IMG/VR virus record: IMGVR_UViG_3300047409_000059
Location: 1-29,211 of that record
Strand: one strand, 5' to 3'
Source of the DNA: a virus
Length of the DNA stretch: 29,211 bases
In this document: positions 7,001-29,211 of the stretch, one piece after another
Position numbering within the stretch: position 1 is the first letter of the stretch
Layout of the letters: each line of letters starts with the position of its first letter
Program-made: the position numbers and the translations under genes
The notes under the pieces: generated by a model
Database searches by the model: none
Seen by the model: the letters and a program-made list of their open reading frames with translations, nothing else
Told to the model about the DNA's origin: nothing

Positions 7001-7012
7001 GTGTCTTTCCGC

Positions 7013-9544: not shown

Positions 9545-9557
9545 GGCGCACGATCCT

Positions 9558-9920
9558 TCACGGTGTCGGTGTCGGTGCTTCGATTGCAATGCCCAGCCTG
9601 CATTCCACTCTTTGCTTCGTCGGCCTGTCGCGCGTGCCAGAGCGCAGCTTGATCCAGCCGACTGTCCGCGCCCATGCACGGTCGATCACAACGCCGCTGT
9701 TGGGATGCGCGACGATGGTGATTTCCTTGCCCTCGTCATCGAACAGGTCGTTGTACCCGTTGCCGTCCGACGACACTTGGAACGTCATCTTGTCGGTGTC
9801 GCCGTCGTCGTACTCCTGCGGCACGGTGATGCGGACGATGATGCCCGCAGAGCAATCGATGCCTTCCGAAAGGCTCTCGCCTGCCGGGATGGTTGGTCCG
9901 TCAATGATGGTAAGCGGCAT
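9558..9920 (-). CDS. Small beta-rich phage protein of unknown function
   Basis: 120 aa, starting MPLTIIDGPTIPAGESLSEG. It has alternating short strands, an 'MTFQVSSDGNGYNDLFDDEG' segment and a 'WIKLRSGTRDRP' strand, followed by a Pro/Thr tail. Similar small beta-sandwich-like proteins with 'FQ.S.DG..F.DLYD...WIK.RSG' patterns are common beside capsid genes of temperate phages. The role, perhaps minor capsid or neck, is unproven. A good ribosome-binding site (GGGAGAGG) precedes the ATG. Confidence 0.65.
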   Translation of the reverse strand: MPLTIIDGPTIPAGESLSEGIDCSAGIIVRITVPQEYDDGDTDKMTFQVSSDGNGYNDLFDDEGKEITIVAHPNSGVVIDRAWARTVGWIKLRSGTRDRPTKQRVECRLGIAIEAPTPTP

Positions 9921-9951
9921 TGCGCCTCTCCCTTTGATCTACAGAAATGGA

Positions 9952-9971
9952 ATGCGGCGGTCGCGCCGCAT
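9952..9971 (-). repeat. Stem-loop just after the capsid gene
   Basis: ATGCGGCG (9952-9959) and CGCCGCAT (9964-9971) form a perfect 8-bp stem with the 4-nt loop GTCG, starting 7 nt after the capsid stop. On the coding strand it is followed by TCCATTTCTG, a weak T-rich stretch. It could be a leaky terminator that lets capsid mRNA exceed downstream mRNA, or a 3'-end stabiliser. Confidence 0.5.
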
Positions 9972-9977
9972 CATGCT

Positions 9978-10994: not shown

Positions 10995-11049
10995 GTGCGT
11001 AATCCTTATTTTTTGCTGGCCTGTCGGCGAGCGGGATTGGTTTGCGCGC

Positions 11050-11880: not shown

Positions 11881-11905
11881 TTCGATACTCCTTTGAGTGT
11901 TGGCC

Positions 11906-12985: not shown

Positions 12986-12996
12986 GGTACAAACTC

Positions 12997-14550
12997 CTAT
13001 GCTGCGTCCGCCGCATCTTCAGCGTCGGCGGCGTCCTGTTCTATCTGTTCGGCTTCCTCTGGGTCTTGATCGGTGGTCGCGTTCGGGTCTTCCGGCTTCA
13101 ACGCGATCTTGGTGGACGACACCACGGGGAAGGACAGACCAAGACGATCCTCGCGCTCGTGATCTGCCTTGATGCGCGCATCGCTCTCCTCCGGATCGAA
13201 GCCCTCTGCCTCGACCACATCGCTGCGGCTCTTGAAGCCCGCGTCCACGGCGAGCTTTTCGGCCTGACGATCCTTCAGCGGGTCCACCCAATCATTGCGC
13301 TGCGGTATCCACTTCGCGCGCTGATAGGAGACTTGCTCCATAAGGTACTCGCTCTCGCCGACCGGCAGCGCCTGCGCGAGAATGGCCGCATCCATCCAGC
13401 GCCGCCAGATCGGAGCGCACATCTGGAACACGATGACGTTGTGCTGAAACTGTTCCAGCTTGCGGCGATACTCCACGATGGAGCCGCGCAGCGATGAATA
13501 GTTGGCGCGGCGAAGATCGCTCGTGCCCAGCGAATAGGGAATGCCAAGCGCGGAGAAGATCGCCAGTTGCTGGCGATACTGATAAGCCTCGTATGATCCG
13601 CCGACGTCGGCAGGCTCGCTGAAGGTGATGCTCTCGCCGGGCAGCAATGTCTGCATGGTGCCGGGTTCAAGACCGGACAAGCCGATGTTTTCCTGCGGCG
13701 CGCTGCCGTCGATGCCGTCAATTGGGATGACGTCTTCCGGCGTTGCGGTGGTGATGAAGCCAGCGAACATCGCGGCGATGCGTTTGCGCTCAAGCTCCGC
13801 GTCGTCATACTGGTCGAGGAAGAACATGCGGACCAGCGCAGGCGTGACCAGCGGGACGCCGCGCATCTGACCCGGTCGCGTACACTTGAAGACGTGCAGC
13901 ACTTCGGAAGCCGGGACGCGAACCGGCTCCAACAGGGGCGAGCTTTCGATTGGCATGTCGCCGGGATGGATCGGGTGGAAATAATAGGCAGCGCGCTGGC
14001 CGATGTGGTCAAGCTCGATGCCGTTCATGATGAAGTTGCCGTTGGCGGCGAGGCCGTTCTTTTCAAACGGGCACATCTCGCTTTCCAGCAACTGGATTTG
14101 CAGCGGCACAAGATAGCCGTCCTCGACGCGGCGCGGACGAAAACGAATGAAGCACTCGCCCGCTTCAAACAGCGCGCGTCCCACAATCGTCTGCATCCCA
14201 TAGAAGTCGGCGATGCCGTCCGCGTCACACTCCTCCGTCCAGTCCAACCATAGCTGCATGATCGTCTGGCGCAGTTCGGGCTTTTCGGTCAGGAGCGACG
14301 ACGGCTTGATGCCGGTGCCGATCAGATTGGAAACGAAGCTGTCGCCAGCCGCGCATGCGTGCGGGTTGTTGCGCATCGCATCGCGACAGCGCGAGCGCAG
14401 GAGATTGCCGCTCGATGTGAGGATGGTGTTGACGGTGGCCTGCGTCGGCACCCAAGACTTGAGCCTGCGCCGCGAGCGTCCGCCATCGAAGTCGTTGCGG
14501 AAGGATTTGCCGCTGATCAGCTTGGCGATCTTGTCACGGAAGCCCGCCAT
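12997..14550 (-). CDS. Portal protein (lambda gpB family)
   Basis: 517 aa. The ATG at 14550-14548 overlaps the gpW stop (TGATG), which decides this start over a GTG 18 nt upstream. Conserved lambda-portal features are visible: RDAMRNNPHACAAGDSFVSN, 'LWLDWTEECDADG', a 'RALFEAGECFIRFR' strand pair, VPLQIQLLESEMCP, EVLHVFKCTRPGQMRGVPLV, and YSSLRGSIVEYRR near the C-terminal third. The last 25 residues are an acidic Asp/Glu/Ala tail. It forms the dodecameric DNA channel at the head vertex. Confidence 0.92.
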   Translation of the reverse strand: MAGFRDKIAKLISGKSFRNDFDGGRSRRRLKSWVPTQATVNTILTSSGNLLRSRCRDAMRNNPHACAAGDSFVSNLIGTGIKPSSLLTEKPELRQTIMQLWLDWTEECDADGIADFYGMQTIVGRALFEAGECFIRFRPRRVEDGYLVPLQIQLLESEMCPFEKNGLAANGNFIMNGIELDHIGQRAAYYFHPIHPGDMPIESSPLLEPVRVPASEVLHVFKCTRPGQMRGVPLVTPALVRMFFLDQYDDAELERKRIAAMFAGFITTATPEDVIPIDGIDGSAPQENIGLSGLEPGTMQTLLPGESITFSEPADVGGSYEAYQYRQQLAIFSALGIPYSLGTSDLRRANYSSLRGSIVEYRRKLEQFQHNVIVFQMCAPIWRRWMDAAILAQALPVGESEYLMEQVSYQRAKWIPQRNDWVDPLKDRQAEKLAVDAGFKSRSDVVEAEGFDPEESDARIKADHEREDRLGLSFPVVSSTKIALKPEDPNATTDQDPEEAEQIEQDAADAEDAADAA

Positions 14551-15014
14551 CACAGACCCTTGTCCCACTGATTGGTCATCCTGATCTGGCGAATGCGACC
14601 GCCGCGACCAAGCGCACCGTCAAGCTCCTCCTCCAGATCGGACAGGATTTGACGAAGCTCCGACAGCGAACGGAATTCGGTGCGCTTGTCGCCGTAGCCT
14701 GCGCTCTCGACGCCTGACGTGATGACGACCTTGAGACCCTTGATGGCGTCGGCGATTTCTTCCGGTGTCGCCGTTCGCGCATTGCGCTTGGCGAGTATCT
14801 GACGACCCTTGACCAGCATCGTCTGCGGCTCGTGAACCGGCACGGGCTTCGTGGTCAGCGTCACCTGATCGGGCGTCACATGGACGGTGGTGTGATCTGA
14901 CGAGCCTTGGATCGGCGACGGCGCATGCGGGGCAACATGCGGCGTCCGACTGGACATTGCTTGCTGAAGGGCGGCGACTTGCGCCAGCAATTCGTCGTAG
15001 GTAGGTTCTGCCAT
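14550..15014 (-). CDS. gpW-like head-tail connector with N-terminal extension
   Basis: 154 aa from the ATG at 15014 (MAEPTYDELLAQVAALQQAM). A TTG 12 nt upstream has a better-spaced GGAG and could be used instead. The C-terminal 50 residues contain the gpW signature: TEFRSLSELRQILSDLEEEL, then RGGRIRQIRM, as in lambda gpW, which is only 68 aa. The preceding 100 residues are Pro/His/Val rich with a helical 'TPEEIADAIKGLKVV' section and are extra for the family. gpW plugs the portal after packaging. Position between large terminase and portal matches lambda. Confidence 0.75.
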   Translation of the reverse strand: MAEPTYDELLAQVAALQQAMSSRTPHVAPHAPSPIQGSSDHTTVHVTPDQVTLTTKPVPVHEPQTMLVKGRQILAKRNARTATPEEIADAIKGLKVVITSGVESAGYGDKRTEFRSLSELRQILSDLEEELDGALGRGGRIRQIRMTNQWDKGL

Positions 15015-15026
15015 AACCCGGAGCAA

Positions 15027-16988
15027 TCATGCTCCAAGATAGTTCGACCGGATTATTCGCCTGACACGTCTCGCCTGAGTGACCGCTGGTGGTGATGGCG
15101 GCGGCGCTTGTGGATTGCTGGGCGGTGGTGCGACTACCTCAGATGGGGTTGATGGCTCCCTGCCGACACCATCCATAGTTCCGGTTCTTTTATTTTGCAA
15201 GGGAATGCGCTGCACATTCAGCAAGTAACCAGCCGCAGCCGCCATCGCCTCGCAGTCGAGGAAGTGGTTATCGCGCGACCGCTGCACCCATTCCACTCGC
15301 CCTGTGGGTTGCTTCAATCTCGCTTCCGAAACCAGTTGCTTGCAATAGTCGTCATCGATCCCCTTGAAAACATGCCATCCGCCGACGTGATCATCCGGCC
15401 AGCGCAACCGCTCATGCACCCAGCACTTCCAGTGGTCGGTATCGAGGCGGACCAGATCGAGACCATACTTGGCCGCCTTGCCGTCCTTGCGATTGACCTC
15501 GATCTTGCTGAAGACCAGCGGCGTGCGCATCGCCGTGGGCGATCCCTTGGTCGGCCTGACGCGGCGCAGGAAGCGGCGGCAGAACTCATAGACCCGATTG
15601 ATCGGTAGCGTGTCGGTCTTGCCCGGTCGAAAGCCGCTGTCCACGAAACAGAGCTTGATCGGAATACCATCGACCGGCTGCGACACCAGATCGCCAAGCG
15701 CCGCCCAGATTTCCTCTTCGGCAGTATCGCCACGGAGATAGCCGTAATTGATCAGCCACGAAGTCGCGCGCGGTCCCCAGCCTCTGATCACCCACGGGAT
15801 GGAATGCTTCTGCACGTCACAGGTCAGAGTGAGGTAAAGAACATCGCCCGGCACCTCGCCGCGCACATAGGTTGCGCGTCGGGACTTCTCCTTGATTTCA
15901 ACCCACTCAGGGACTTCGCCGCCGCCCGGTGAGTACAGTTCACCGAAGCCCGCGTTGATGGCTTGCTGGACCATCGCGTCATCGCCGGATTGCTGCGCCT
16001 CGACCAGCACCGACACGCGCTCGCCGAATGTCACGAACGGCGATGCGAGACCGGAGACCCAGAACGATATCGCCTTGGTATCCGGCACTGGCCCCGTGAC
16101 GATGCCGCCCTTATCGATGCCCTGACCCGGCGCGACGTATCGCCCGCGCGAATTCATTTCCGCCTTGTGACTGTCCTCGACCACGCCATTGCAGATCGGG
16201 CACTCCATGAACGTCTCGCGCCCGGCTTCCAGCGGCGTCACCTTCAACGGGAAGCGCATGAGATTGAAACGCGGCACAAAGTATTCATCGCAATGCGGGC
16301 ACGGCCAGCACCAGTGATGCCGCGTGCCTTGCTGCCAAAGCTGCCAGATCGGGCTTTCGATTTCATCTGACGCGGCAACGTCCCACAGATGCAGACCGGA
16401 CACGGCGTCCACCGACGTCGCCACTACACCGCGCTTCGGCGTTGACGTGACCACGCAGACGAAGTCGGCATAGGTGTCGCCGCGCCGCTCGACCAGTCCC
16501 AAGGGTCCGCCTTGGTTGTTCACGTTGTCGCGCATCTCGTCATATTCATCGATCAGCGCCAGCACCGCTGGATCGGACTTCAGCGCGGTGGACGATCCGG
16601 AATGCGCGAGACGAAACGGCACACCCGCAACGACCTTGCGCGTCTTGGTCATGCGCTTGCCTCTGGCGACCTTGGCCATGAGGGTCGGCGCTTCATCGAG
16701 TAGCGACATCACGCGCGGCTCAAACTGTTCGGTCAGGAATTGCTTGCTTGGTCCGACATAGAGGATCGGCCCCGGCTTCTGATCCAGCCGCTGCCCGGCG
16801 ACATCGAGCATGAGTTCCGATTTGCCGGTCTGCGCACCGAACACCATGACGACGCGCCGCCATGTGCCCGCAGCCACGGCGCGCTCCGGTTCGATGACGT
16901 AGGGCGTCAGGAGCGGATCACGCGGCCCCGGCACCGCTGCCGTTTGCGGATACGTCCGGTTCGCTGCCGCCCACAGGTCCGGTTCCAT
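15027..16988 (-). CDS. Terminase large subunit (lambda gpA family)
   Basis: 653 aa from the ATG at 16988; an alternative ATG at 17003 has no visible ribosome-binding site. The ATPase half has the deviant Walker A GAQTGKSE (about 51-58) typical of gpA, and Walker B LALIDEYDEM (about 143-152). Two cysteine pairs, CPHC and CPIC, form a putative zinc site in the middle. The nuclease half has YLTLTCDVQ and CFVDSGFRPGKTD with acidic metal ligands, and ends in a DCEAMAAAAGY segment common in gpA. A Pro/Arg-rich tail follows. It cuts concatemeric DNA and drives packaging. The gene overlaps the small subunit by 71 nt. Confidence 0.92.
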   Translation of the reverse strand: MEPDLWAAANRTYPQTAAVPGPRDPLLTPYVIEPERAVAAGTWRRVVMVFGAQTGKSELMLDVAGQRLDQKPGPILYVGPSKQFLTEQFEPRVMSLLDEAPTLMAKVARGKRMTKTRKVVAGVPFRLAHSGSSTALKSDPAVLALIDEYDEMRDNVNNQGGPLGLVERRGDTYADFVCVVTSTPKRGVVATSVDAVSGLHLWDVAASDEIESPIWQLWQQGTRHHWCWPCPHCDEYFVPRFNLMRFPLKVTPLEAGRETFMECPICNGVVEDSHKAEMNSRGRYVAPGQGIDKGGIVTGPVPDTKAISFWVSGLASPFVTFGERVSVLVEAQQSGDDAMVQQAINAGFGELYSPGGGEVPEWVEIKEKSRRATYVRGEVPGDVLYLTLTCDVQKHSIPWVIRGWGPRATSWLINYGYLRGDTAEEEIWAALGDLVSQPVDGIPIKLCFVDSGFRPGKTDTLPINRVYEFCRRFLRRVRPTKGSPTAMRTPLVFSKIEVNRKDGKAAKYGLDLVRLDTDHWKCWVHERLRWPDDHVGGWHVFKGIDDDYCKQLVSEARLKQPTGRVEWVQRSRDNHFLDCEAMAAAAGYLLNVQRIPLQNKRTGTMDGVGREPSTPSEVVAPPPSNPQAPPPSPPAVTQARRVRRIIRSNYLGA

Positions 16989-17757: not shown

Positions 17758-18130
17758 CTGTGCAGTTCAGACGTTGATTGTTTGAACGAATAAGACCGAC
17801 TGTTACACGCGATCCAGACGCCGCGAGAGTGCTTCATGCTCTCGCCCTCACGCGCCCAGAAGCCCTTGCCGCAGTGACTGCGCCAAGACAAGTTTTGGGA
17901 GATGCTGTTAAGCGCCGTTCGGATTGAGATGAGATGCGAAAGCATTTTGATCGCGGGGTGGTTTACAGCGGGGTGCGCGGGTCTTTCGAACCGCAATGCA
18001 CGCCTTCGCGGCTCCTGACATGGGACGCTGCAACGGAACTTATTCGCACGCGCCGCAGTGATGCGCCGCCGCCCAAACAATATCCCAACGTCTGAACGTC
18101 AAAAGCCTTCATGCATTTATGCCTCTGATT

Positions 18131-18222
18131 GTTTCGACACTGTCCACGGTTTGCTCCCGTGGACAGCACGAAGCAATTGCTTCCGACGCGCGATCATGCG
18201 CGGCGATTAGAGAGCAACTAAA
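18131..18222 (+). promoter_or_regulatory. Start-associated structured element, copy 1
   Basis: GTTTCG (18131-18136), ACA, then stem CTGTCCACGG (18140-18149) with CCGTGGACAG (18157-18166), then CACGAAGC. GAAGC (18170-18174) also forms a second hairpin with GCTTC (18179-18183) across AATT. A third small GC stem follows, CGCGC/GCGCG. The end is a variant of the conserved start sequence, AGAGAGCAACTAAA, before ATG 18223. The T-run of an intrinsic terminator is absent. Confidence 0.7.
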
Positions 18223-18435
18223 ATGGCCCACGAAGTCTACGCAATCGAACATCACGATTTGACGACCAACGTCCGAACGCTCCTCGATCACATGCTTGGA
18301 GAAAAAGACGCGATGGAAAAAACCTACGTCAAGCCGTGGAACAGAACAGCGAAGCGAAAGAAGTGGAACGTCCAATATCGTATCGTCCCCATGCCCTACG
18401 CCAACTCGCTTCCTGATTGGTTCGAATATTCCTGA
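18223..18435 (+). CDS. Small basic protein of unknown function, 70 aa
   Basis: The first supported gene of the rightward operon, starting MAHEVYAIEHHDLTTNVRTL. It is helical at first, then has an aromatic, basic C-terminal part (VKPWNRTAKRKKWNVQYRIV) ending NSLPDWFEYS. No family recognised. The start is supported by the conserved AGAGAGCAA element 6 nt upstream. An intrinsic terminator lies 56 nt after its stop, so this gene may be made more than, or separately from, the genes after it. That would fit a small early regulator, but this is inference. Confidence 0.7.
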   Translation: MAHEVYAIEHHDLTTNVRTLLDHMLGEKDAMEKTYVKPWNRTAKRKKWNVQYRIVPMPYANSLPDWFEYS

Positions 18436-18440
18436 ATGCT

Positions 18441-18545
18441 GTTTCGCCTCTGCGCATCCGAAAGGGTGCGCAGCACGAAGCAACATGCTTCACGCCCCAG
18501 CATCCGCTGCGGGCGTTTTTTGTTACCCATAGAAAGAGCAAGTCC
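18441..18545 (+). promoter_or_regulatory. Start-associated structured element, copy 2
   Basis: GTTTCG (18441-18446) precedes stem CTGCGCATCC (18450-18459), a GAAA tetraloop, and GGGTGCGCAG (18464-18473) with one T-G pair. Then CACGAAGC. GAAGCA (18477-18482) can form a second hairpin with TGCTTC (18486-18491). A true terminator hairpin (18492-18521) is inserted before the conserved start sequence AGAAAGAGCAAGTCC and the ATG of the MoxR-like gene. Confidence 0.75.
18492..18521 (+). terminator. Intrinsic (rho-independent) terminator
   Basis: ACGCCC-CAGC (18492-18501), loop ATCC, GCTG (18506-18509), a bulged C, GGGCGT (18511-18516), then a run of six T (18516-18521). The stem has 10 pairs with one bulge. 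It should stop or attenuate transcription between the 70-aa gene and the MoxR/VWA genes. Confidence 0.75.
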
Positions 18546-19571
18546 ATGTCTAGTGTTATCACTCTGAAGAACACCGAAGTCTCCATCGCCACGGCGGCTC
18601 GCCGCACTCGCAAACTTATTGCGAAGCGGAAACCCGTCATGCTTTGGGGCAAGCCCGGCATCGGCAAGTCTGATCTGGTTCGCCAGATTGGCGCGATGCT
18701 TGGGATGAAGGTGATCGAATTCAGAACCAACATTCGCGAGCCTGTTGACGTGCGCGGCATTCCGGTGCCGTGCGAAAAGACGGGCACCACTCGATGGTTC
18801 GTCCCTGACGAATTGCCGCAAGTGGATCGCGATGGTGAATGCGGCATCCTGTTCATTGACGAAATCAATACCGGGACGTTGCAGATGATGGCGGTGATGT
18901 TCGGCCTCGTGCTTGACCGTCGCGTCGGTGAATACGTCCTGCCGAATGGCTGGGTGATCATCGCAGCGGGCAACATGGTCGCCGACAAGGCTGCGGCTCA
19001 ACGAATGCCGACAGCCCTGCGAAATCGTTTCGCGCATATCTATTGCAAAGCCGATCTGGCTGCGTGGTGCGCGTGGGCGAATTCGAACGGCATCGCCCCT
19101 GAACTGGTCGCGTTCCTGCGACTGCGTCCAGACTTCATCCACGTCATGCCTGTTGGTGATGAAAATGCATTCCCCACTCCGCGTTCGTGGGCGCAATGCA
19201 GCGACTTCGTGAACGAAGACAAGGAAGACAGGATGGCGCTGTTCGCCAGCTTTGTCGGCGATGCCTACGCAACGGAGTTGGATGCGTTCATCGATCTGTA
19301 CCACTCGATTGGTTCACTCGATGCAATCATCAAAGACCCGAAGGGCGCGAACGTGCCGACTGAACCGTCCTTGCGGTACGCAGTCTGCACGGGCTTGGCC
19401 AGAATGGCGACGAAGAAAACCTTCCCGAACATCGTCACGTTCGCCAAGCGACTGAACCGCGAAAGCCAAATCTTGCTTGTCACCGATGCAACGCAGCGGG
19501 ACGATGATTTGAAAAACACCGCCGTTTACGGCGAGTGGGCTGTCGCCAATCAAGACATCACGATCCAATAA
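18546..19571 (+). CDS. MoxR-type AAA+ ATPase
   Basis: 341 aa from the ATG at 18546, directly after AGAAAGAGCAAGTCC. AAA+ features: Walker A GKPGIGKS (35-42), Walker B ILFIDEIN (101-108), sensor 1 in VIIAAGN (137-143), and an arginine-finger region ALRNRFAH (157-164). PVDVRGIPVP between Walker A and B and TGTLQMMAVMFGLVLDRRVG after Walker B fit the AAA_5/MoxR lineage. MoxR ATPases act as chaperone-like partners of VWA proteins, here most likely the product two genes downstream. The C-terminal 170 residues form the helical lid and an unfamiliar domain. No transmembrane segment, so cytoplasmic. Confidence 0.88.
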   Translation: MSSVITLKNTEVSIATAARRTRKLIAKRKPVMLWGKPGIGKSDLVRQIGAMLGMKVIEFRTNIREPVDVRGIPVPCEKTGTTRWFVPDELPQVDRDGECGILFIDEINTGTLQMMAVMFGLVLDRRVGEYVLPNGWVIIAAGNMVADKAAAQRMPTALRNRFAHIYCKADLAAWCAWANSNGIAPELVAFLRLRPDFIHVMPVGDENAFPTPRSWAQCSDFVNEDKEDRMALFASFVGDAYATELDAFIDLYHSIGSLDAIIKDPKGANVPTEPSLRYAVCTGLARMATKKTFPNIVTFAKRLNRESQILLVTDATQRDDDLKNTAVYGEWAVANQDITIQ

Positions 19572-19575
19572 GTCT

Positions 19576-19687
19576 TGAACACTGCCACAGGGGTGCGAGC
19601 AATCGCACCCCTTCACAGTGTCCATCGACACTCGCTGCCTCGTGCAGTGAATACAACGCGGCCACGCGCCGCAGAAAGAGCAAGCCC
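19576..19687 (+). promoter_or_regulatory. Start-associated structured element, copy 3 (two-hairpin class)
   Basis: ACACTG...CAGTGT encloses GGGGTGCGA (19590-19598), loop GCAA, TCGCACCCC (19603-19611), a perfect 9-bp stem. A second hairpin CGCTGC...GCAGTG follows near 19633-19650. The element ends in AGAAAGAGCAAGCCC before ATG 19688. It shares its design with copy 4 but differs from the GTTTCG class. Confidence 0.7.
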
Positions 19688-20584
19688 ATGTCTCCGAAGA
19701 AAATCACCACGCCGCTTTCACGCAAAGCGGTTTTGGTTTCCGTCAACATCTCTCAATGGACAGCGAGAAAGCTGGACAAGAAAGTGACCGACGAAACCAA
19801 CCGGCGTCACAATGCAACTGCCGACGCCGGGCGGTACAATAAGCTGTTGATCGCCGCCGATCATCTGAAGGAGTTGAGCGGGCTGGTTTCGAAAGCCCGA
19901 CAGCTTCATTACAAGATGACGCGACCGTGGGCCGACGAAGGCCCGCGCATTCTCGCCAACGTGCTGTATTCGAAGTTCAGTGATGAATTCCGAACCATCA
20001 AGCGGGAGTTCAATGTCGCCGCTGACCGTTTCGCCAAAGTTTACCCGACGCTGATTGAAGAGCGGAAGGGCAAGCTCAATGGAATGTTCAACGAAGCGGA
20101 CTATCCGCCGCCCTCACAGATCAGATCAAAATTCCAACTTGATCTGACCGTGCTGCCGTTCCCCGACGCCGACGATTTCCGATCCACACTGGATGACGAA
20201 ACGGTTGAGGAGATCAGGCAGCAACTCAAGTCCACGTCCGACGCCGTGTTGGACAATGCCATGAAGACGACCGCCGAACAGATCATCAAGACTGTTGGGC
20301 ACATGGCAACGTCGCTCGCCGAATACAAAGCGAGCGGCGGCAAGGGCGACAAGGCAGAGGGCGTTTTCCGCGACAGCTTAGTGGAGAACGTCAGAGAGTT
20401 GGCAGAGCTTCTGCCCGCTTTCAATCTGACCGACGACCCGCGCCTTGACGCAATCACGAAGCGGATCAAATCCGAATTGTGCGTTGAGGAAGCTGCCGAC
20501 CTTCGCAAGAACGACGGCGTCCGCGAGAGCGTCCAGAAGAGCGCCGACGATATCGTCGCCGCTGTCAGCCAACTATTCGGCTGA
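19688..20584 (+). CDS. Helical partner of the MoxR/VWA pair (DUF3150-like?)
   Basis: 298 aa, starting MSPKKITTPLSRKAVLVSVN with 'ISQWTARKLDKKVTDE' next. Almost entirely alpha-helical by composition, with conserved-looking 'GRYNKLLIAADHLKEL', 'LHYKMTRPWADEGPRILANVLYSKF' (split here by a loop), and 'DLTVLPFPDADDFR'. It resembles phage proteins annotated as DUF3150 that occur beside MoxR and VWA genes; I am not certain of the family. Lying between the ATPase and the VWA protein, each behind the same type of leader element, it is probably the third subunit of the complex. Confidence 0.65.
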   Translation: MSPKKITTPLSRKAVLVSVNISQWTARKLDKKVTDETNRRHNATADAGRYNKLLIAADHLKELSGLVSKARQLHYKMTRPWADEGPRILANVLYSKFSDEFRTIKREFNVAADRFAKVYPTLIEERKGKLNGMFNEADYPPPSQIRSKFQLDLTVLPFPDADDFRSTLDDETVEEIRQQLKSTSDAVLDNAMKTTAEQIIKTVGHMATSLAEYKASGGKGDKAEGVFRDSLVENVRELAELLPAFNLTDDPRLDAITKRIKSELCVEEAADLRKNDGVRESVQKSADDIVAAVSQLFG

Positions 20585-20587
20585 TGA

Positions 20588-20687
20588 TCACTGCCACAGG
20601 GGCGTGCAGCAATGCACGCCCTTCCACAGTGTTCATCCGAACACTCGCCGCATTCGTGCGGTGACTGCAAACAGAAAGAGCAAGTCC
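20588..20687 (+). promoter_or_regulatory. Start-associated structured element, copy 4 (two-hairpin class)
   Basis: CACTG...CAGTG encloses GGGCGTGCA (20600-20608), a GCAA tetraloop, and TGCACGCCC (20613-20621). The second hairpin is CGCCGCA, TTCG tetraloop, TGCGGTG (about 20647-20664) with one G-T pair. AGAAAGAGCAAGTCC then leads to ATG 20688. Stem sequences differ from copy 3 at several paired positions while pairing is kept. Confidence 0.75.
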
Positions 20688-22223
20688 ATGTCTATTGATA
20701 TCGAAGCAACCCTTCGCGTTGAGAAAGCGCGAGGCGAGTTGATCTTGGCACGTCGCTTCTATGGCGTGCTGGTGTCGAATGTCGTTCCTGTTCTGTCGCG
20801 GAAATTCCCGACGATGGCCACAGACGGCAAGCGGCACTATTTCAATCCCGACTTCGTTTGCGGATTGAGCAAGAACCATCTTGGCGTTGAGACCGATCCG
20901 GCGATCCTGTTGCTGGGTGTTCAAGCTCACGAAAGCGAGCATGATGCCCGACACCACGGCACGCGCCGCAACGGTCGAGACCCAGAGGAATGGAACGTCT
21001 GTTGCGACTATGCAATCAACATCGATCTAATCGATGAGGGCTTCCAGCTTCCCTTTGGCGCACTGATTGATCCGCAATATCGCGGCATGAGTGCAGAGGA
21101 CATCTACCGATCCCGTGAGCTTGACCGCGAGCGGGACAAACCGGAAGAGCCGCAAGACCAAGAGAACGAAGACGACGGCACCGAAGACGGGCTGGACGAT
21201 GCTGACACGAACCCGCCGCCGAAGGGTGGCGAGGACGACAGCGACGAACAGAACGAACCCGAAGACGGCGACGACAGCGATGCTGACGGCGACGACAAGG
21301 GTGACGACGGCAAGTCCGAAGACGATGCCGACGAAGACGGCGAAGGCGGCAGCGGCAACGCTGATGCTGACGACGGCGACGAAGGCGAGAGCGAGGGCGA
21401 CGGCAAAGGCGGTGACGCTGGCGACGATGCCCAAGGCAAAGGCGCTGGCAGCGGTGACGCTGAAGGCGAAGGCGAAGCTGGCGAGGGTGAAGCGCAGACG
21501 TCGGGCGATCCCGGCATGTGCGGCGAAGTCCTCGACAGTGCATTGGAAGACAGCGACATCGGCGAAGAGGAAATCAAGTGGGAACGCGCAGTGCGCCAAG
21601 CCGCTTCGATGGCCAAAGCTGCCGGTCAATTGCCCGGTCATATCTCGCGAGAGATTGAACGGACGAACAATCCCACCCGCGATTGGCGCGATGAACTGCG
21701 GGAGTTTTGCGAACAGGGTGCGCTGCGCATCGAAACATGGAACCGGCCCAATCGCCGCTTCATGGGTCGCGGCATCGTGCTGCCCTCAACACAAAAAGAC
21801 GGCGTCTCCAAAGCGGCGTTTCTAATCGACACTTCAGGATCATGCGACGAAGTCGCGTTGGCCTGTGTCCGTGACGAAGCGCAAGCGATGATGGACGACG
21901 GCATCATTGACGAAATCGTGGTGGTCTACGGCGACACCCGCGTTACCCGCGTCGATGAATTCAGAACAGGCGATGAATTGGAATTCGATCCGCGTGGTGG
22001 CGGCGGCACCGATATGGAGCCGCTGTTTAGCTTCGTTGCTGAAGAGCATGAAGACGCCGCGTTGATCGTCTGTTTCACCGATCTGGATTTCTACAAGTCC
22101 TGTGGCGACGAGCCGCACTGTCCAGTGCTGTTCGCCGTTCATGGGTATCCGCAATTCGTGAAGGCGAAGATTGAAGCTGGCGCTCCTTGGGGCGCAAAGG
22201 CAATCGACGTCGGCGCGCATTGA
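20688..22223 (+). CDS. VWA-like metallopeptidase (DUF2201-type)
   Basis: 511 aa from the ATG at 20688. The N-terminal domain has HESEH (81-85), a zinc-metallopeptidase HExxH, followed by EWNVCCDYAINIDLI (101-115), as in the putative metallopeptidase domain paired with VWA-like DUF2201. Residues about 145-275 are a linker made mostly of Asp, Glu, Gly and Ala. The C-terminal VWA domain has a full MIDAS: DTSGS (381-385), Thr441 in GGGGTD and Asp465 in CFTDLDF. Together with the MoxR ATPase upstream this forms a MoxR-VWA pair, in which the ATPase remodels the partner or a client. Target unknown. No signal peptide or membrane segment. Confidence 0.85.
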   Translation: MSIDIEATLRVEKARGELILARRFYGVLVSNVVPVLSRKFPTMATDGKRHYFNPDFVCGLSKNHLGVETDPAILLLGVQAHESEHDARHHGTRRNGRDPEEWNVCCDYAINIDLIDEGFQLPFGALIDPQYRGMSAEDIYRSRELDRERDKPEEPQDQENEDDGTEDGLDDADTNPPPKGGEDDSDEQNEPEDGDDSDADGDDKGDDGKSEDDADEDGEGGSGNADADDGDEGESEGDGKGGDAGDDAQGKGAGSGDAEGEGEAGEGEAQTSGDPGMCGEVLDSALEDSDIGEEEIKWERAVRQAASMAKAAGQLPGHISREIERTNNPTRDWRDELREFCEQGALRIETWNRPNRRFMGRGIVLPSTQKDGVSKAAFLIDTSGSCDEVALACVRDEAQAMMDDGIIDEIVVVYGDTRVTRVDEFRTGDELEFDPRGGGGTDMEPLFSFVAEEHEDAALIVCFTDLDFYKSCGDEPHCPVLFAVHGYPQFVKAKIEAGAPWGAKAIDVGAH

Positions 22224-22307
22224 CGTTTCGCCACTGCGCAGTCCGAAAGGGCTGCGCAGCACGAAGCGCCAACATCAAATCAACCGGCGACTTCAGAAAG
22301 AGCAAGC
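22224..22307 (+). promoter_or_regulatory. Start-associated structured element, copy 5
   Basis: GTTTCG (22225-22230); stem CTGCGCAGTCC (22234-22244), GAAA loop, GGGCTGCGCAG (22249-22259) with one T-G pair. CGAAGC (22262-22267) can close the outer helix. Alternatively GAAGCGCC (22263-22270) pairs with GGCGACTTC (22286-22294), one A bulged, with a 15-nt loop. AGAAAGAGCAAGC then abuts ATG 22308. Confidence 0.75.
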
Positions 22308-22751
22308 ATGTCTACATTCAAAAAAGGCGACCTCGTAAAGCTGATCCATCTGGACGGCACGTTGAGCGAAGCTGTCACCGTCCACGATCTATGGGGCGAC
22401 GACAGCCACGCGCGCAACGCATCGATCTGGTCTGGCAATCAGGAACAGTTCACCCACACCGATCTGATGCGGCACGCGGACGACACTTCGCCCGTGGTCG
22501 TTCCCGACTTCGGCACATGGTTCATCGCACGCGGTGACAACATGGGCTGGGGACGCGCAACGACCGCCGACAACGCCGCGCGCAACATGCGGCGACAAGG
22601 CGGGGCCATCAAGTCGTATGTCGTTCATCGTGTGACCAAGTGGACGACGGTGAACGACATGGGCGACCTGTCGTTCCCCGGTGGGATCGAGAGCGCCTAT
22701 CCCGTGCTGGTGAAAGAAGTCCGACGCAAGCCAGCGAAGGCAACTGCCTGA
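22308..22751 (+). CDS. Unknown phage protein, 147 aa
   Basis: Starts MSTFKKGDLVKLIHLDGTLS, a beta-barrel-like opening ('KKGDLVKL' as in KOW/SH3-like folds). A middle segment 'WFIARGDNMGWGRATTADNAARNMRRQGG' in two halves suggests a helix-strand unit, and the end is basic (KEVRRKPAKATA). No family recognised. Its start is fixed by the conserved AGAAAGAGCAAGC sequence immediately upstream. It follows the VWA gene after a structured spacer and is probably in the same transcript. Confidence 0.7.
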   Translation: MSTFKKGDLVKLIHLDGTLSEAVTVHDLWGDDSHARNASIWSGNQEQFTHTDLMRHADDTSPVVVPDFGTWFIARGDNMGWGRATTADNAARNMRRQGGAIKSYVVHRVTKWTTVNDMGDLSFPGGIESAYPVLVKEVRRKPAKATA

Positions 22752-22826
22752 CGTTTCGACACTGCGCAGCATTCGTGCTGCGCAGAACGAAGCGCCAATC
22801 CGGCGACTTCAGAAAGAGAGCAAGCC
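22752..22826 (+). promoter_or_regulatory. Start-associated structured element, copy 6
   Basis: GTTTCG, then stem CTGCGCAGCA (22762-22771), a TTCG tetraloop, and TGCTGCGCAG (22776-22785), a perfect 10-bp stem. GAAGCGCC (22789-22796) pairs either with GTTTCG (through CGAAGC) or with GGCGACTTC (22802-22810). AGAAAGAGAGCAAGCC (22811-22826) leads straight into ATG 22827. The cleanest copy. Confidence 0.8.
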
Positions 22827-23309
22827 ATGTCCAAAGATATCCCACAACACTGGAAGCCGCTCGTGAAGCTGCGACCAGATCAGACGTTCCGACGCATCGA
22901 AGTGGTGCGCGAAACCATGAAGCATTACGGCATCGATGAGGCTGCGGCCAATACGATGCTCGATGCGGAAGACGCGAAGTGCGATTGCTACGTCAACCAT
23001 CTGTATCAAGTTCAGGTCGGCGTCTGCGGTCCAGACAACGCAATGCTGCACATAAACATCCGACGACGCGATGGCGGTGCCATCTTCGATTGGCGGCACA
23101 TGCAGCAAATCAAAAACGAAATCGCAGGCGATGAACGTGAGGCGTTCCAAATCTTTCCAGCCGAAAGCCGGAAGGTGGACACGTCGAATAAATATCATCT
23201 GTGGGTACTGCCTGTCGGCGCGGCATTCAACGCCGTGGGCTGGCAGGAGCGAGATGTACAGTACGAAGAAAACCGGGACGTCCCCGGCCTTCGTCAACGA
23301 AAGCTGTGA
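22827..23309 (+). CDS. Phage protein of unknown function (DUF7694-like), 160 aa
   Basis: Starts MSKDIPQHWKPLVKLRPDQT. The C-terminal two thirds contain 'MLHINIRRRDGGAIFDWRHM', 'QQIKNEIAGDEREAFQIFPA', and ESRKVDTSNKYHLWVLP. This combination (IRR.D...DWR..Q.IKNE..G.E..A...PAESR..D..N.YHLWV) matches a widespread phage family that I believe is DUF7694, function unknown. Two Cys in DAKCDCYVNH may bind metal but are outside the core. The start is fixed by the conserved upstream element. Confidence 0.75.
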   Translation: MSKDIPQHWKPLVKLRPDQTFRRIEVVRETMKHYGIDEAAANTMLDAEDAKCDCYVNHLYQVQVGVCGPDNAMLHINIRRRDGGAIFDWRHMQQIKNEIAGDEREAFQIFPAESRKVDTSNKYHLWVLPVGAAFNAVGWQERDVQYEENRDVPGLRQRKL

Positions 23310-23332
23310 CCATGATCACCAGAGAGCAAGCG

Positions 23333-23590
23333 ATGGAATACGTTTCGTTCGGCGTCGATGACGCACAAGCGATCCGGACACTTGACGACATGCCCGCCAA
23401 TGCGCGGCTCGTCGGCTGGCAATGCGGCTTCGAACCGATGTTCGTCGCCGTGTGGTCGTATCTCGCCGACACGCAGGGCAATCACAATCGCCTTGACGAT
23501 GACGAAGCCGAAGAGTTGGCGACCGACGCGCTCAAGGAAGCGGGCTGGTTCGCAAGCGAAGAACCAACGCCGCCAGACTACATCCTGTGA
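23333..23590 (+). CDS. Small acidic protein, 85 aa
   Basis: The chosen start is the ATG at 23333 because AGAGAGCAAGCG, the operon's conserved start-associated sequence, lies directly before it. The in-frame ATG at 23312 lacks such a site and would translate the element as ITREQA. The protein starts MEYVSFGVDDAQAIRTLDDM and is acidic and aromatic: 'GWQCGFEPMFVAVWSYLADT' then a helical 'DDEAEELATDALKEAGWF'. No family recognised. Unlike most genes here it has no hairpin in front; the gap to the previous stop is only 23 nt. Confidence 0.7.
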   Translation: MEYVSFGVDDAQAIRTLDDMPANARLVGWQCGFEPMFVAVWSYLADTQGNHNRLDDDEAEELATDALKEAGWFASEEPTPPDYIL

Positions 23591-23592
23591 CC

Positions 23593-23665
23593 CTTCGACG
23601 GCGCGCATTCGAAAGAGTGCGCGCAACGAAGCGCCAACGTGGTGACTTCAGAAAGAGAGCAAGCA
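23593..23665 (+). promoter_or_regulatory. Start-associated structured element, copy 7
   Basis: CTTCG, then stem GCGCGCATTC (23601-23610), GAAA loop, GAGTGCGCGC (23615-23624) with one T-G pair. GAAGCGCC (23628-23635) can pair with the upstream CTTCG or with GGTGACTTC (23641-23649), where a G-T pair replaces a G-C seen in copies 5 and 6. AGAAAGAGAGCAAGCA leads to ATG 23666. Confidence 0.75.
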
Positions 23666-23842
23666 ATGGAACTACCTAAATTTACGTTCGATATGGAATG
23701 CCCGGTCTGCAAGCGTCAGGACATGATCGAGGTCGATAAGAAAAGCCCGCCGCCGAAACTGCACTGCGGCGACTGTCTGATGCTGGAAATGAAGATGGTG
23801 GAATTGACCATCGTCCGCGTGCTGGTGGGTGTGAACTCATGA
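23666..23842 (+). CDS. Zinc-ribbon protein, 58 aa
   Basis: Starts MELPKFTFDMECPVCKRQDM. Two cysteine pairs, CPVC (12-15) and CGDC (34-37), lie about 20 residues apart, a classic small zinc ribbon. The C-terminal MVELTIVRVLVGVNS is a hydrophobic strand. Such proteins bind nucleic acid or other proteins. The start is fixed by the conserved element. Its stop overlaps the next start (ATGA at 23839-23842), so the next gene is translationally coupled. Confidence 0.75.
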   Translation: MELPKFTFDMECPVCKRQDMIEVDKKSPPPKLHCGDCLMLEMKMVELTIVRVLVGVNS

Positions 23843-24372
23843 GCATCCTGAAAGGCATTCTTGAAAGCGAAGTCGCCAATTGGGAGTTCGTCGGCCACGC
23901 CGCGCTGTTGCATCGGTTCGTTCTGCGCAACGGCAAGGCGTACACGCCCACGAAGCGCATCGGTCGCAAGATGGAGATGAAGCAATGCTTCGCCAACTCC
24001 TACAAGACCGTGCTCCGAAAGACGGACTGGAGCTATGTCGAGGGCTTCACGATCCATCGAGAGCGACCGCTCATGGCCATCCATCATGCATGGGTGACGA
24101 CGAACGGAAACGACGCGATGGACCCGACGCTGAACGCTGCCGAATACGATTACTTCGGCATCGCGTTCGACCGCATGACGATGATCGAGGAGACGGCGCG
24201 CAATCGGTTCTACGGCATTCTTGATACTGGCCTTGGGATGAATGTGCGTCTGATGTTCGGGCTGGACCCTGAACTGCGAAGCATCGTTGAGGCAGTCAAG
24301 CCGCATAGTGCTTGGCAGAAAGCGCAGGCGGAGACCACAGCGTTCAAGGTGATACAAGGAGACCTGACATGA
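23839..24372 (+). CDS. Phage protein with a Cys-His-Asp triad pattern, 177 aa
   Basis: Starts MSILKGILESEVANWEFVGH. The core has KQCFANSY (Cys50), WSYVEGFTIHR, IHHAWVTT (His83) and DAMDPTL (Asp95). The order C-N...YVEG...HAW...DPT matches a common phage and bacterial family and resembles the catalytic triad order of papain or transglutaminase-like folds. A cysteine peptidase or amidase is possible but unproven. It is coupled to the zinc-ribbon gene upstream and to the secreted protein gene downstream by ATGA overlaps. Confidence 0.7.
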   Translation: MSILKGILESEVANWEFVGHAALLHRFVLRNGKAYTPTKRIGRKMEMKQCFANSYKTVLRKTDWSYVEGFTIHRERPLMAIHHAWVTTNGNDAMDPTLNAAEYDYFGIAFDRMTMIEETARNRFYGILDTGLGMNVRLMFGLDPELRSIVEAVKPHSAWQKAQAETTAFKVIQGDLT

Positions 24373-24638
24373 TGCGAGCAATCCTGATCGCGGCGATCCT
24401 CGTGCTGGCGTCCGACGCGGCGTCTGCACAGTCGCGCGTGATCTACGGTGCCGATGGGCGTGCAGTGGGCAACATCCACGGCGATCAACGCGGCAACTTC
24501 ACTGAATACGATGCACGAACCGGGCGCGTCACAGGGCGCGCAACGACGGGATCGGACGGCACCGTCACTGTGTACGGGGAGGACGGCAGGGTGCGTGAAC
24601 GCATCTCGCCGCAAGACCCACGTTCACGGCGACCATAA
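24369..24638 (+). CDS. Small exported protein, 89 aa
   Basis: Starts MMRAILIAAILVLASDAASA with a signal peptide: a short basic start, hydrophobic core and Ala-X-Ala (ASA) cleavage site near residue 20. The mature part repeats a strand-turn unit: RVIYGADGRAVG, NFTEYDARTGRVTG, VTVYGEDGRVRE. Similar 'YG.DGRVVG' repeats occur in small periplasmic proteins of Rhizobiales and their phages. It probably acts in the periplasm. Whether it helps lysis or surface exclusion is unknown. ATG 24369 overlaps the previous stop; a second ATG follows at once. Confidence 0.75.
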   Translation: MMRAILIAAILVLASDAASAQSRVIYGADGRAVGNIHGDQRGNFTEYDARTGRVTGRATTGSDGTVTVYGEDGRVRERISPQDPRSRRP

Positions 24639-24654
24639 GTTACCGGAGAGACGA

Positions 24655-24783
24655 TTGGCTTTCCCCGCAGCCGTGTCGGTCAACGGGCGAACGTGCGGCT
24701 TAATAAGCCAAGGCGCACAAGGCGTGGTTCTGGTGTCTCTTCGGTATGGGACGTGGCCAGTGAAATCACGCAAGACCTTCTGA
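24655..24783 (+). CDS. Possible small protein, 42 aa, TTG start
   Basis: A TTG at 24655 with GGAGAG 5 nt upstream opens a frame read as (M)AFPAAVSVNGRTCGLISQGA, continuing to RYGTWPVKSRKTF. Its TGA at 24781 is followed at once by CGTTTCG, exactly as after the genes ending at 22223 and 22751. This suggests a real gene end here. Alternatives are decayed sequence or untranslated spacer. Confidence 0.4.
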   Translation: MAFPAAVSVNGRTCGLISQGAQGVVLVSLRYGTWPVKSRKTF

Positions 24784-24865
24784 CGTTTCGACACAACGCC
24801 GCTCCATCACGGGGCGGCGTTGCACGAAGCGCCATCCCGGCACTTCAACAAAGAGAGCAAGCACA
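24784..24865 (+). promoter_or_regulatory. Start-associated structured element, copy 8
   Basis: GTTTCG, then stem CAACGCCGCTCC (24794-24805), loop ATCAC, GGGGCGGCGTTG (24811-24822), 12 pairs with one T-G. GAAGCGCC (24826-24833) can pair with GGCACTTC (24839-24846) with one internal mismatch. AAAGAGAGCAAGCACA leads to ATG 24866. The stem sequence is unrelated to the CTGCGCAG stems of other copies. Confidence 0.7.
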
Positions 24866-26104: not shown

Positions 26105-26469
26105 AATCCTATCGAGTGCTGACGATACGACAGCCGTGGGCGCATCTGATCATCGAGGGCATCAAGCCGGTCGAGAACAGGAGTTGGTCCACGTCTTATC
26201 GCGGGCTGATCCTGATCCACGCCGCACAGGCTCGCGATGCTGAACTGATCAGCCAGTTCGATCTTGATCCTGATGCTCTCGCCTACGGTGCAGTGATTGG
26301 CTGCGCTGACCTTGTCGATATCGTTGACGATCACCCGTCGCCGTTCTTCAACGGACCATGCGGTTGGGTGTTGAGAAAACCGCAGCGCATCGAGCCGATC
26401 CCGTTGCAGGGAAAGCTCTCGCTGTGGGAAGCGACCCTCAAGCTGCCGCCGCTGCGCCGTCGCCGCTGA
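26101..26469 (+). CDS. ASCH-domain protein, 122 aa
   Basis: Starts MKSYRVLTIRQPWAHLIIEG. 'TIRQPWAHLI..G.K..ENRSW', 'YRGLILIHAAQA' and 'AYGAVIGCADLVDIV' are the ASCH beta-barrel signature, with the conserved KxxENR loop. ASCH proteins bind RNA or act as small hydrolases of modified nucleosides. It is the last gene of the operon and starts in an ATGA overlap with the HTH gene. Its 3' end runs 32 nt into the convergent ABC-GNAT gene. Confidence 0.88.
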   Translation: MKSYRVLTIRQPWAHLIIEGIKPVENRSWSTSYRGLILIHAAQARDAELISQFDLDPDALAYGAVIGCADLVDIVDDHPSPFFNGPCGWVLRKPQRIEPIPLQGKLSLWEATLKLPPLRRRR

Positions 26470-27568
26470 TCAGCGACTGCGCTTCTGCACGATCCATAGC
26501 CTCGCCCCTGTACACGAAGGTGGCACAGGGGCGGCGCTTGTTCATCTTCTCAATTGACGACGTCCCGCCCGTGGCGGGCAAGAATGCTCCCGGCATCTTG
26601 ATCATTCCCCAGCACTTCGATTTGTCGAAGGCGCGCACCAGCGATGGGTGCGCAGGATAAGTATGCAGCCGATGACCCAGCGCCTTGTGCGCTGCCCCCA
26701 GCGTGTCGGCTAAGATCATCGCCAATCCCAACCCCTGATAATCCGGCAACGTCACCAGACGACTGACACCCTTGATGTCATGCGCGCGAGCGTGCGGCCT
26801 GTGCAGAATGCCAGCGAACGACGCGGGCACTCCGTCAACGAACAGAACGTAACACGCGGCAGACCGCGCAAGCTCTGCCGTCAGATAGTGAAATGGCGCG
26901 AATAGTTGCCACGCCTCATAACCGACGCGCGCCACTTCGACAGCGATTGCTGGTCTTCGCCGAAGTAACCTCCATTGGAATGTCATCGTCGCAGGCTCCA
27001 GCATCCAGTCGGGCTGCAACCACTCGATCACGTCATAGTGGCACGTCACCGCAACGAACTTTTTCCCGGCCTTGCGGATGTGCTTCTGCACCGCGTGGCT
27101 CCCGATCTGCGCGACCTGACGATCCACCACCGACGTGAATTCGTCTATCACCACCAGATCGCCGCCCTCGATCAGATGACGCGCCAGATCAACGCGGAAT
27201 TTCTCGCCGGTTGACAACACGCCATAGGGCTTGGCCCAGCTTGGGATGGTGTTGAAGCCGACTGCGCTGCAAGCCTGCGTCACCGTGTCGATGGATAGCG
27301 CCGCGTCGAAATCGTCAATGACCGACTGCGCTTTCCATTCGTTGATCTTCGGCGCTCCGAACATGCTGTTGGCGATTGTGGACTTGCCAGCGCCTGACGG
27401 ACCAACGATGCAACCAATATTCCACTCGCGGTCGTCAAGCGGAATTTCCGCGTTCCATTCGTGCGTCATCTTTTCTTGGATGGGCGCGTCGAACATTGCG
27501 GACAGTTGCTTGACCCGCGCCGTCAGCTTGATGTCGCTCTCGACTTTGATGTGGACAGATACCGCCAT
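26438..27568 (-). CDS. ABC-type ATPase fused to a GNAT acetyltransferase domain
   Basis: 376 aa. ABC part: Walker A GPSGAGKST (56-64), signature-like LSTGEKFR (118-125), Walker B LVVIDE (138-143) and switch His177 in TCHYD. There is no transmembrane domain, so this is a soluble ATPase. GNAT part (about 205-330): SRLVTLPDYQGLGLA with the acetyl-CoA loop QGLGLA (278-283), followed by a helix and a 'HTYPAHPSLVRAFDKSKCWG' strand/helix pair. Such fusions occur in phages; a role in DNA or nucleotide modification, as for GNAT-fold Mom of phage Mu, is possible but not shown. GGGAG upstream of the ATG lies inside the HNH gene. Confidence 0.8.
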   Translation of the reverse strand: MAVSVHIKVESDIKLTARVKQLSAMFDAPIQEKMTHEWNAEIPLDDREWNIGCIVGPSGAGKSTIANSMFGAPKINEWKAQSVIDDFDAALSIDTVTQACSAVGFNTIPSWAKPYGVLSTGEKFRVDLARHLIEGGDLVVIDEFTSVVDRQVAQIGSHAVQKHIRKAGKKFVAVTCHYDVIEWLQPDWMLEPATMTFQWRLLRRRPAIAVEVARVGYEAWQLFAPFHYLTAELARSAACYVLFVDGVPASFAGILHRPHARAHDIKGVSRLVTLPDYQGLGLAMILADTLGAAHKALGHRLHTYPAHPSLVRAFDKSKCWGMIKMPGAFLPATGGTSSIEKMNKRRPCATFVYRGEAMDRAEAQSLISGDGAAAAA

Positions 27569-28405: not shown

Positions 28406-28593
28406 TCTTCTTCCTTGAGCGCCTCCCTGTATCGGCGCATCACGTCACCAACGTCCACAACGAGGCCGCGATACTTGACCGCGTGAGTGATGGCGTCCGT
28501 CAGACTGTCGAAGCCGTTGGCTTTGGCAACCGCTTCCATGTGATCGTATAGCTCTGCCTTCTTGCTGTCGGTCAACTGATCATCGCTTCGCAT
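28402..28593 (-). CDS. Small acidic helical protein, 63 aa
   Basis: Starts MRSDDQLTDSKKAELYDHME and continues with helical 'AVAKANGFDSLTDAITHAVK'. Predominantly helical, charged, no Cys. It overlaps the end of the ParB-like gene by 22 nt. No family recognised; the operon position suggests a small accessory factor. Confidence 0.6.
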   Translation of the reverse strand: MRSDDQLTDSKKAELYDHMEAVAKANGFDSLTDAITHAVKYRGLVVDVGDVMRRYREALKEEE

Positions 28594-29211
28594 TTCAGCC
28601 CCTGATCTTCCAGCATCTCCAGAACCTGTGCCTGATGATCCTCATCGTTGCATCGCACGATGACGGAGAAGGCCAGCCCCTTCAGTTGCGGTTCCGTGGT
28701 CACGGGTTCCAAGTCCAGCTTGCGCAGATCGCCCTTGCTGAACCCAATGGCCAGCGGATTGCCGCCGTCGCTCTTCACGCGCTGAAGTTCCTGCGCCAGC
28801 TTGGCCGCATCCCAGCCAGCGTTCAGAGGTATGCGGTTATCGAGTAGCGCAAACGCCCGGCACTGCGCCTCGCTCCAGCCGCGCGCCACCAGCACTTTGA
28901 TTTCCGTCAGCCCCTCCAGCGCCGCTGCAACACGTCGCCCATGCCCGGCAATTATCTCGCCGTCTTCACGCACCAAGATTGGCCAGACTTGCCCGTAATC
29001 CCGCAGCGATGCCCGCAATTCCTCGATCTGCTTTTTGGGGTGCGTTCGGGCGTTCACAGCGCTGTCGGTAGGGCGATCAATAGGCCAAAGCTCTATCTCA
29101 TCACGCGCGAGGGTCGCGCTTGCCGGTGACGTTCCCTGCGGGGTTGGGGAGCTATGCAAATCGGGAATGCCTTCTGCTAAATATATTGAAAGGATGGGGT
29201 CGCGCGGTCCC
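28572..29211 (-). CDS. ParB-like nuclease-domain protein, 5' end outside the window
   Basis: The frame is open to the right edge and has no ATG before the domain. A TTG at 29159 is the only plausible start inside the window, so the gene probably begins outside. The ParB/sulfiredoxin-like domain: 'DEIELWPIDRPTDSAVNART', then HPKKQIEELRASLRDYGQVW, PILVREDGEIIAGHGRR with the GHGR motif, and 'EAQCRAFALLDNRIPLNAGW'. Phage ParB-like proteins of this kind lie near terminase or methylase genes and may bind or nick DNA. A C-terminal domain of about 70 residues follows (LKGLAFSVIVRCNDEDHQAQ). It is the first visible gene of the convergent right-hand run. Confidence 0.8.
   Translation of the reverse strand, partial: GPRDPILSIYLAEGIPDLHSSPTPQGTSPASATLARDEIELWPIDRPTDSAVNARTHPKKQIEELRASLRDYGQVWPILVREDGEIIAGHGRRVAAALEGLTEIKVLVARGWSEAQCRAFALLDNRIPLNAGWDAAKLAQELQRVKSDGGNPLAIGFSKGDLRKLDLEPVTTEPQLKGLAFSVIVRCNDEDHQAQVLEMLEDQGLKCEAMIS

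Follow-up and report, generated by a model that had tools for sequence, protein, structure and literature searches.

The IMG/VR virus record IMGVR_UViG_3300047409_000059 is a stretch of 29,211 bases, analysed here at its full length and referred to as the window. Terminase, portal, protease and tape-measure genes occupy its left half on the minus strand, and its right half is a rightward operon with genes for a MoxR-type AAA ATPase (AAA_5; phrog_1297; 18546-19571, plus strand), a DUF3150-like protein (19688-20584, plus strand) and a DUF2201 metallopeptidase-like plus VWA-like protein (20688-22223, plus strand). Eight spaces of this operon carry a structured element just ahead of a gene start. 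A sequence-only reading had reported a stem-loop in each of these spaces, and all eight are present where it placed them. Beyond that reading, the element contains two mutually exclusive helices, owing to an outer pairing and a downstream arm, and belongs to a family found in related phages. The eight copies are confined to gaps between non-overlapping genes; the tightly packed or overlapping genes at 23839, 24369, 25483, 25862 and 26101 have no element in front, so that one to four genes follow each element as a unit.

All eight gaps share one layout, namely a left arm, a GC-rich hairpin (P2), a middle arm, a right arm, the ribosome-binding site (RBS) and the ATG. The left and right arms are similar in sequence, each being complementary to the middle arm. 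The latter can pair with the left arm to form P1, which encloses P2, or with the right arm to form P3, and P1 and P3 are therefore mutually exclusive. In the window, the outer pairing is GTTTCG/CGAAGC in six of the eight copies and CACTG/CAGTG in two, and the alternative downstream partner of the middle arm is GCTTC, GGCG-A-CTTC or (G)ACACT. The arms of the six copies follow the pattern (AC)GTTTCG / CGAAGC(GCC) / GCTTC or GGCG-A-CTTC, and those of the other two are GAACACTG / CAGTGTC / GACACT and GATCACTG / CAGTGTTC / GAACACT.

The copies, all on the plus strand, are numbered e1 to e8. The first, e1 (18128-18183, CGAAGC subtype), precedes an open reading frame of 70 amino acids that starts at 18223 on the plus strand; its left arm ATTGTTTCG (18128-18136), middle arm CGAAGC(AAT) (18169-18177) and right arm GCTTC (18179-18183) form a P1 of 8-9 base pairs (bp) or a P3 of 5 bp, and its P2 (18140-18166) has a loop of 7 nucleotides (nt). 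Before the MoxR-type ATPase gene lies e2 (18440-18491, CGAAGC subtype), composed of TGTTTCG (18440-18446), P2 (18450-18473), CGAAGCA (18476-18482) and TGCTTC (18486-18491). The two copies of the CAGTG subtype are e3 (19577-19632), before the DUF3150-like gene, with GAACACTG at 19577-19584, P2 at 19589-19612, CAGTGTC at 19616-19622 and GACACT at 19627-19632, and e4 (20586-20645), before the DUF2201/VWA gene, with GATCACTG at 20586-20593, P2 at 20598-20623, CAGTGTTC at 20627-20634, a loop AUCC and GAACACT at 20639-20645. Further downstream, e5 (22224-22294, CGAAGC subtype) consists of CGTTTCG (22224-22230), P2 (22234-22259), CGAAGCGCC (22262-22270) and GGCG-A-CTTC (22286-22294); e6 (22752-22810) of CGTTTCG (22752-22758), P2 (22762-22785), CGAAGCGCC (22788-22796) and GGCGACTTC (22802-22810); e7 (23592-23649) of CCTTCG (23592-23597), P2 (23601-23624), CGAAGCGCCA (23627-23636) and TGGTG-A-CTTC (23640-23649); and e8 (24784-24846) of CGTTTCG (24784-24790), P2 (24794-24822), CGAAGCGCC (24825-24833) and GGCACTTC (24839-24846).

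The stems quoted earlier as examples of differing sequence were accurate (GCGCGCATTC at 23601, CTGCGCAGCA at 22762 and CAACGCCGCTCC at 24794), as were the tetraloops, which are GAAA in e2, e5 and e7, TTCG in e6 and GCAA in e3 and e4. Loops of the GNRA/UNCG type thus close P2 in six of eight copies, compared with roughly 5% for random tetraloops, and the loops of e1 and e8 are longer. Together, P1 and P2 most often amount to 16-19 bp with an internal loop of 1x2 or 2x2, and a minority are shorter. Most stems indeed lack a following T-run. Only e2 is followed by one, which belongs to a separate terminator-like hairpin ending in T6 (18492-18521, plus strand) directly 3' of the element. A consensus terminator scan listed neither this hairpin nor any terminator at the P2 hairpins, and the element itself is not the GC hairpin followed by a T-run that defines an intrinsic terminator. 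Terminator-like hairpins with a T-run lie in the equivalent position in the related contigs L100 (about 6272) and L107 (about 2176); this recurrence after the MoxR-ATPase element in three phages may reflect attenuation of the ATPase module.

The start motif AGAAAGAG(AG)CAAGC, described in the sequence-only reading as part of the eight-copy element, is the local form of a phage-specific RBS and not a constant part of it. Seven of the eight starts have an intact copy in front, AGAAAGAGCAAG at 18531-18542 and further copies at 19673-19684, 20673-20684, 22295-22306, 22811-22825, 23650-23664 and 24850-24862 (plus strand); the copy before 18223 is degenerate (TTAGAGAGCAACTAAAATG). The motif occurs a ninth time, at 23321-23331 (plus strand), without a stem-loop. 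Relatives have GGAGTCAC..., GGAGCAACT... or AGAAGGAGAGC... in the corresponding place, and also GGAGTC...; the RBS is constant within one phage and the arms vary. In relatives, the right arm ends about 40 nt before the ATG with a hairpin, P4, in between. P4 has a near-constant palindromic loop, UUGCAA, and lies between P3 and the RBS in L001, L118, L121, L131 and others; it is absent from e5-e8 of the window. The loop is a possible kissing-loop or protein site.

The search for relatives started from two syntenic IMG/VR contigs, L001 and L058, and an alignment of DUF3150, used as the marker, led to 80 viral loci. The gaps before the DUF3150 genes of relatives have the same layout in different letters, and a start-anchored scan yielded many complete copies. 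The earlier reading had proposed a covariance model search of phage genomes. A model built from 25 copies, containing P2, P3 and P4 and omitting P1, gave 99 matches (E≤0.0082; 77 loci), all on the gene strand and spread over about two dozen distinct contigs. Two further contigs, both also with a DUF3150 gene, came from an exact-core scan. The element-bearing phage contigs share the MoxR–DUF3150–DUF2201 operon, and in whole-contig searches the copies lie in one region per genome, with up to about 11 in about 7 kb. In the window, e3 (E 1e-4) and e4 (E 3e-6) match the model; the remaining six copies are a sister subtype that also occurs in L100, L107, L109 and L110 (seven copies). Beyond this group, the three-strand rule did not exceed background in distant DUF3150 relatives (8% vs 4%), cellular genomes gave one distant match only, and the plasmid and actinobacterial loci L179-L181 had no credible element. 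An integrated relative was not found in the cellular genomes searched. Other scans were discarded: a genome-wide three-strand scan without a gap filter returned coding noise equally on both strands and was replaced by the start-anchored scan and the covariance model; an exact scan for AGAAAGAGCAAGYNATG gave 98 matches, nearly all coding, with L058 as the only true relative; and a match to the CGAAGCGCC pattern in L187 lies within a coding gene and is due to chance.

Pairing is maintained despite sequence change, as the earlier reading had claimed. In an alignment of 85 distinct rows from 22 related loci, fitted to P2, P3 and P4, 93.4% of P2/P3/P4 cells are paired, compared with 69.9±0.7% after shuffling; all 20 pairs show changes on both sides, and covariation is 0.545 against 0.155 shuffled and at most 0.092 when slid. 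For P1, to which this alignment was not fitted, 84.2% of cells are paired and all eight pairs have changed on both sides; covariation amounts to 0.308, compared with 0.185±0.010 shuffled (reached in 0/500) and at most 0.138 slid. A register-free test, with the left-arm register optimised identically in the controls, gave a left-middle pairing of 6.74 compared with 5.09±0.11 for permuted arms, and none of 20,000 permutations in which arms were swapped within one phage only reached it. Of 576 middle-arm positions, 449 have a partner in each of the two states. For example, the three arms covary together as AACTTTTCTA / TAGAGAAGT / TTTCTCT in L121 and as GTTGCG / CGCAGCAA / TGCTGC in L134. That one middle strand serves two partners in each of about 100 copies argues strongly, on evolutionary grounds, for a two-state RNA, and both competing helices are kept by covariation. 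In a strand-neutral count over the three helices, internal mismatches are G·U in 43 cases and A·C in 9, an excess that indicates RNA of the gene strand rather than DNA. Because the copies share descent, none of these figures counts independent events. A DNA-level operator or binding site with inverted repeats could have been suspected from repeated dyads within one operon; besides this excess, the arms differ among copies of one phage with pairing kept, and covariation without conserved sequence contradicts a DNA site, so that this explanation has next to no probability.

The element matches no catalogued RNA family. Covariance models of Rfam 15 gave no match in the window up to E 5 and none at gathering scores in ten element-bearing relatives, and the open-access literature searched contains no description of it. 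It is not a start-associated sequence (SAS) or extended SAS (ESAS) of cluster K mycobacteriophages, a hammerhead or an intrinsic terminator. Like SAS/ESAS, it occurs in multiple copies on the same strand just before the starts of non-structural genes, with inverted repeats upstream. In agreement with the earlier view that the two are unrelated, the 13-bp GGGATAGGAGCCC is absent from the window, the motif there being the RBS described above or, in relatives, GGAGTC.... For ESAS, the authors state that changes in the inverted repeats do not support base pairing, unlike those in the window element, and a three-strand arrangement is not described there (PMC3203893).

Another comparison is with the RNase III signals of T7 early mRNA, likewise intergenic hairpins of a polycistronic phage message that are interrupted by a small internal loop; the intergenic hairpin R1.1, for example, spans 60 nt and has a 4/5 internal loop (PMC6121014). 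The hairpins of such signals lie between genes, measure about 20 bp and usually contain an internal loop, and the P1/P2 composite is of this kind. In the T7 descriptions consulted, no second, downstream partner of the 3' arm is mentioned, and the sequences are unrelated. In its proposed working the element would nevertheless resemble a T7-type RNase III signal.

The structure, its alternative helices, the strand and the distribution are well-supported computed results, and from them we infer a function in which the message is cut, RNase III is the cutter and end hairpins stabilise the products. The element would be a cis-acting module that splits the polycistronic phage mRNA, in which P1/P2 would serve an RNase III-like enzyme as substrate and P3 would be the hairpin refolded at the 5' end, a reading to which we give a little less than an even chance. 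During transcription, P2 would fold and the middle arm would then close P1 around it, giving a composite hairpin that typically has 16-19 bp and is interrupted by a small internal loop. Near that loop, between P2 and the middle arm, a host RNase of the RNase III-like, double-strand-specific kind would cut, leaving the upstream message with P2 as its end. The freed middle arm could re-pair with the right arm, so that the downstream message would start with P3 just before the RBS, or with P3 plus P4 in many relatives, and these end hairpins would stabilise the messages. This reading is favoured because both alternative helices are kept by compensatory change, the element is RNA of the gene strand, it recurs in non-overlapping gaps of the same operon, and its two states have similar energies. 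Computed for the P1 and P3 states, these are -29.3 and -30.1 kcal/mol in e6 and -29.3 and -29.5 kcal/mol in e7; the two states of e4 are at -29.4 and -26.7 kcal/mol, and for the stretch folded the minimum-energy fold of e1, e2, e3, e5 and e8 is the P1 form. Over 83 copies the P3 state minus the P1 state averages 1.3±2.7 kcal/mol, and in 44 of the 83 the two lie within 2 kcal/mol.

Processing is also favoured by a parallel in the same gaps of a distant relative. L156 (IMGVR_UViG_3300033551_000003), a 64.8-kb contig with the same operon (a DUF3150-like gene with 41% identity, AAA and DUF2201), has 13 Hammerhead_II matches, seven of them at or above the Rfam gathering score; three more found by core pattern bring the type II hammerheads to about 16. 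All lie in stop-to-start gaps, most of them 14-17 nt before the ATG. The CUGAUGA / GAAA catalytic core and the RF02276 match found in L156 are absent from the window element, yet the cut products would share end hairpins: a hammerhead cut in L156 would make the upstream piece end in stem III and the downstream piece begin with stem I, and cutting the window element between P2 and the middle arm would produce ends of the same kind. Polycistronic phage RNA with two or three hammerheads around it is known (PMC3088659). The number in L156, where one ribozyme occupies most gaps of the region 246-15507 (plus strand), far exceeds the two or three per locus of that report. The stem I loop of the L156 hammerheads (e.g. 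UUGAGCA) is complementary to sequence just upstream of the RBS (UGCUCAA).

Several observations weigh against processing. A phage gene for RNase III was looked for and not found, which obliges the model to assume a host enzyme; P1 does not lengthen where P2 is short or the reverse (rho 0.13), leaving no visible constraint on total helix length; several P2 hairpins or P1/P2 composites are short for RNase III; and, with no hammerheads in the other relatives scanned, the parallel comes from one phage at 41% DUF3150 identity. In addition, the near-equal state energies and the left arm abutting the stop codon also suit the main rival, a ribosome-gated switch, which we consider unlikely. A ribosome terminating at the upstream stop would cover the left arm and leave P3 to form, with P1/P2 forming otherwise, and the switch would act on RNA decay or transcription and not by masking the RBS, each gene's expression following translation of the preceding one. 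In most cases the left arm terminates 4-16 nt past the upstream stop (median 7), within the footprint of a terminating ribosome, and the arm often overlaps the stop codon. Compact phage gaps, however, make the element start at the stop codon regardless, e1 and L100:5932 retain P1 with no evident gene upstream, and masking the left arm in folding leaves RBS accessibility the same (0.554 vs 0.545). The unchanged accessibility makes simple RBS sequestration unlikely as well, and a translational attenuator acting in this way is highly improbable. The element does lie just upstream of the RBS, and ACTCC:GGAGT in L001 and GCTT:AAGC in the window suggested sequestration by the right arm; this was rejected since the RBS is constant in each phage while the arms, the right arm included, vary, and masking has no effect. 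Of the two functions offered by the sequence-only reading, RNA processing is now the better option, and phage-controlled translation by RBS masking is unsupported by folding.

Attenuators and riboswitch expression platforms use mutually exclusive helices, and the window element likewise has one strand with two competing partners; it differs in that it has no aptamer, neither state traps the RBS or a terminator, and a copy stands in nearly every gap. Transcription attenuation or antitermination, with the P1/P3 choice governing passage of RNA polymerase at P4 or at the terminator after e2, draws on the terminator-like hairpin there and its equivalents in L100 and L107 and is improbable, as most elements have no T-run or terminator and the right arm shares no bases with the terminator stem. 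Somewhat less improbable are static stability hairpins, in which P2, P3 and P4 would protect messages or block reinitiation and left-middle pairing would merely strengthen P2, with neither cut nor switch. The GC-rich stems with GNRA/UNCG loops and the interchangeability of P4 with the terminator-like hairpin accord with this, but it gives no reason for the middle arm to covary with the left arm and also with the right.

If the element directs mRNA processing, these phages would be able to use a host enzyme to break an operon up into messages that carry a hairpin at either end; L156, with self-cleaving RNA in the same gaps instead, would offer a testable case of two unrelated RNA devices in one role, and the element would be a compact part for setting gene expression within an operon. 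A fuller proposal, which we hold only tentatively, is a new RNA family of uncultured phages in which a 'hand-over' strand pairs first with the left arm as a cleavage helix and later, once the RNA has been cut or the strands have exchanged, with the right arm to cap the new 5' end, with a copy in nearly every non-overlapping gap of one operon, arms differing by copy, and functional interchangeability with hammerheads in one relative.

Some features of these contigs lie outside the element. The DUF2201 protein of the window has a long acidic low-complexity insert (about 21160-21500) separating its metallopeptidase-like from its VWA-like part, which is also present in L001 and L058. At 26438-27568 on the minus strand, a protein matches both ABC-transporter ATPase and GNAT acetyltransferase models (phrog_11143), and a similar gene occupies the same end of L058; a ParB N-terminal-domain protein (28572-29159, minus strand) lies at the right end of the window. 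The phage contig L145 has an alphaproteobacterial transfer-messenger RNA match (RF01849, 110 bits; 6292-6670, minus strand), a hint that some phages of this group have alphaproteobacterial hosts.

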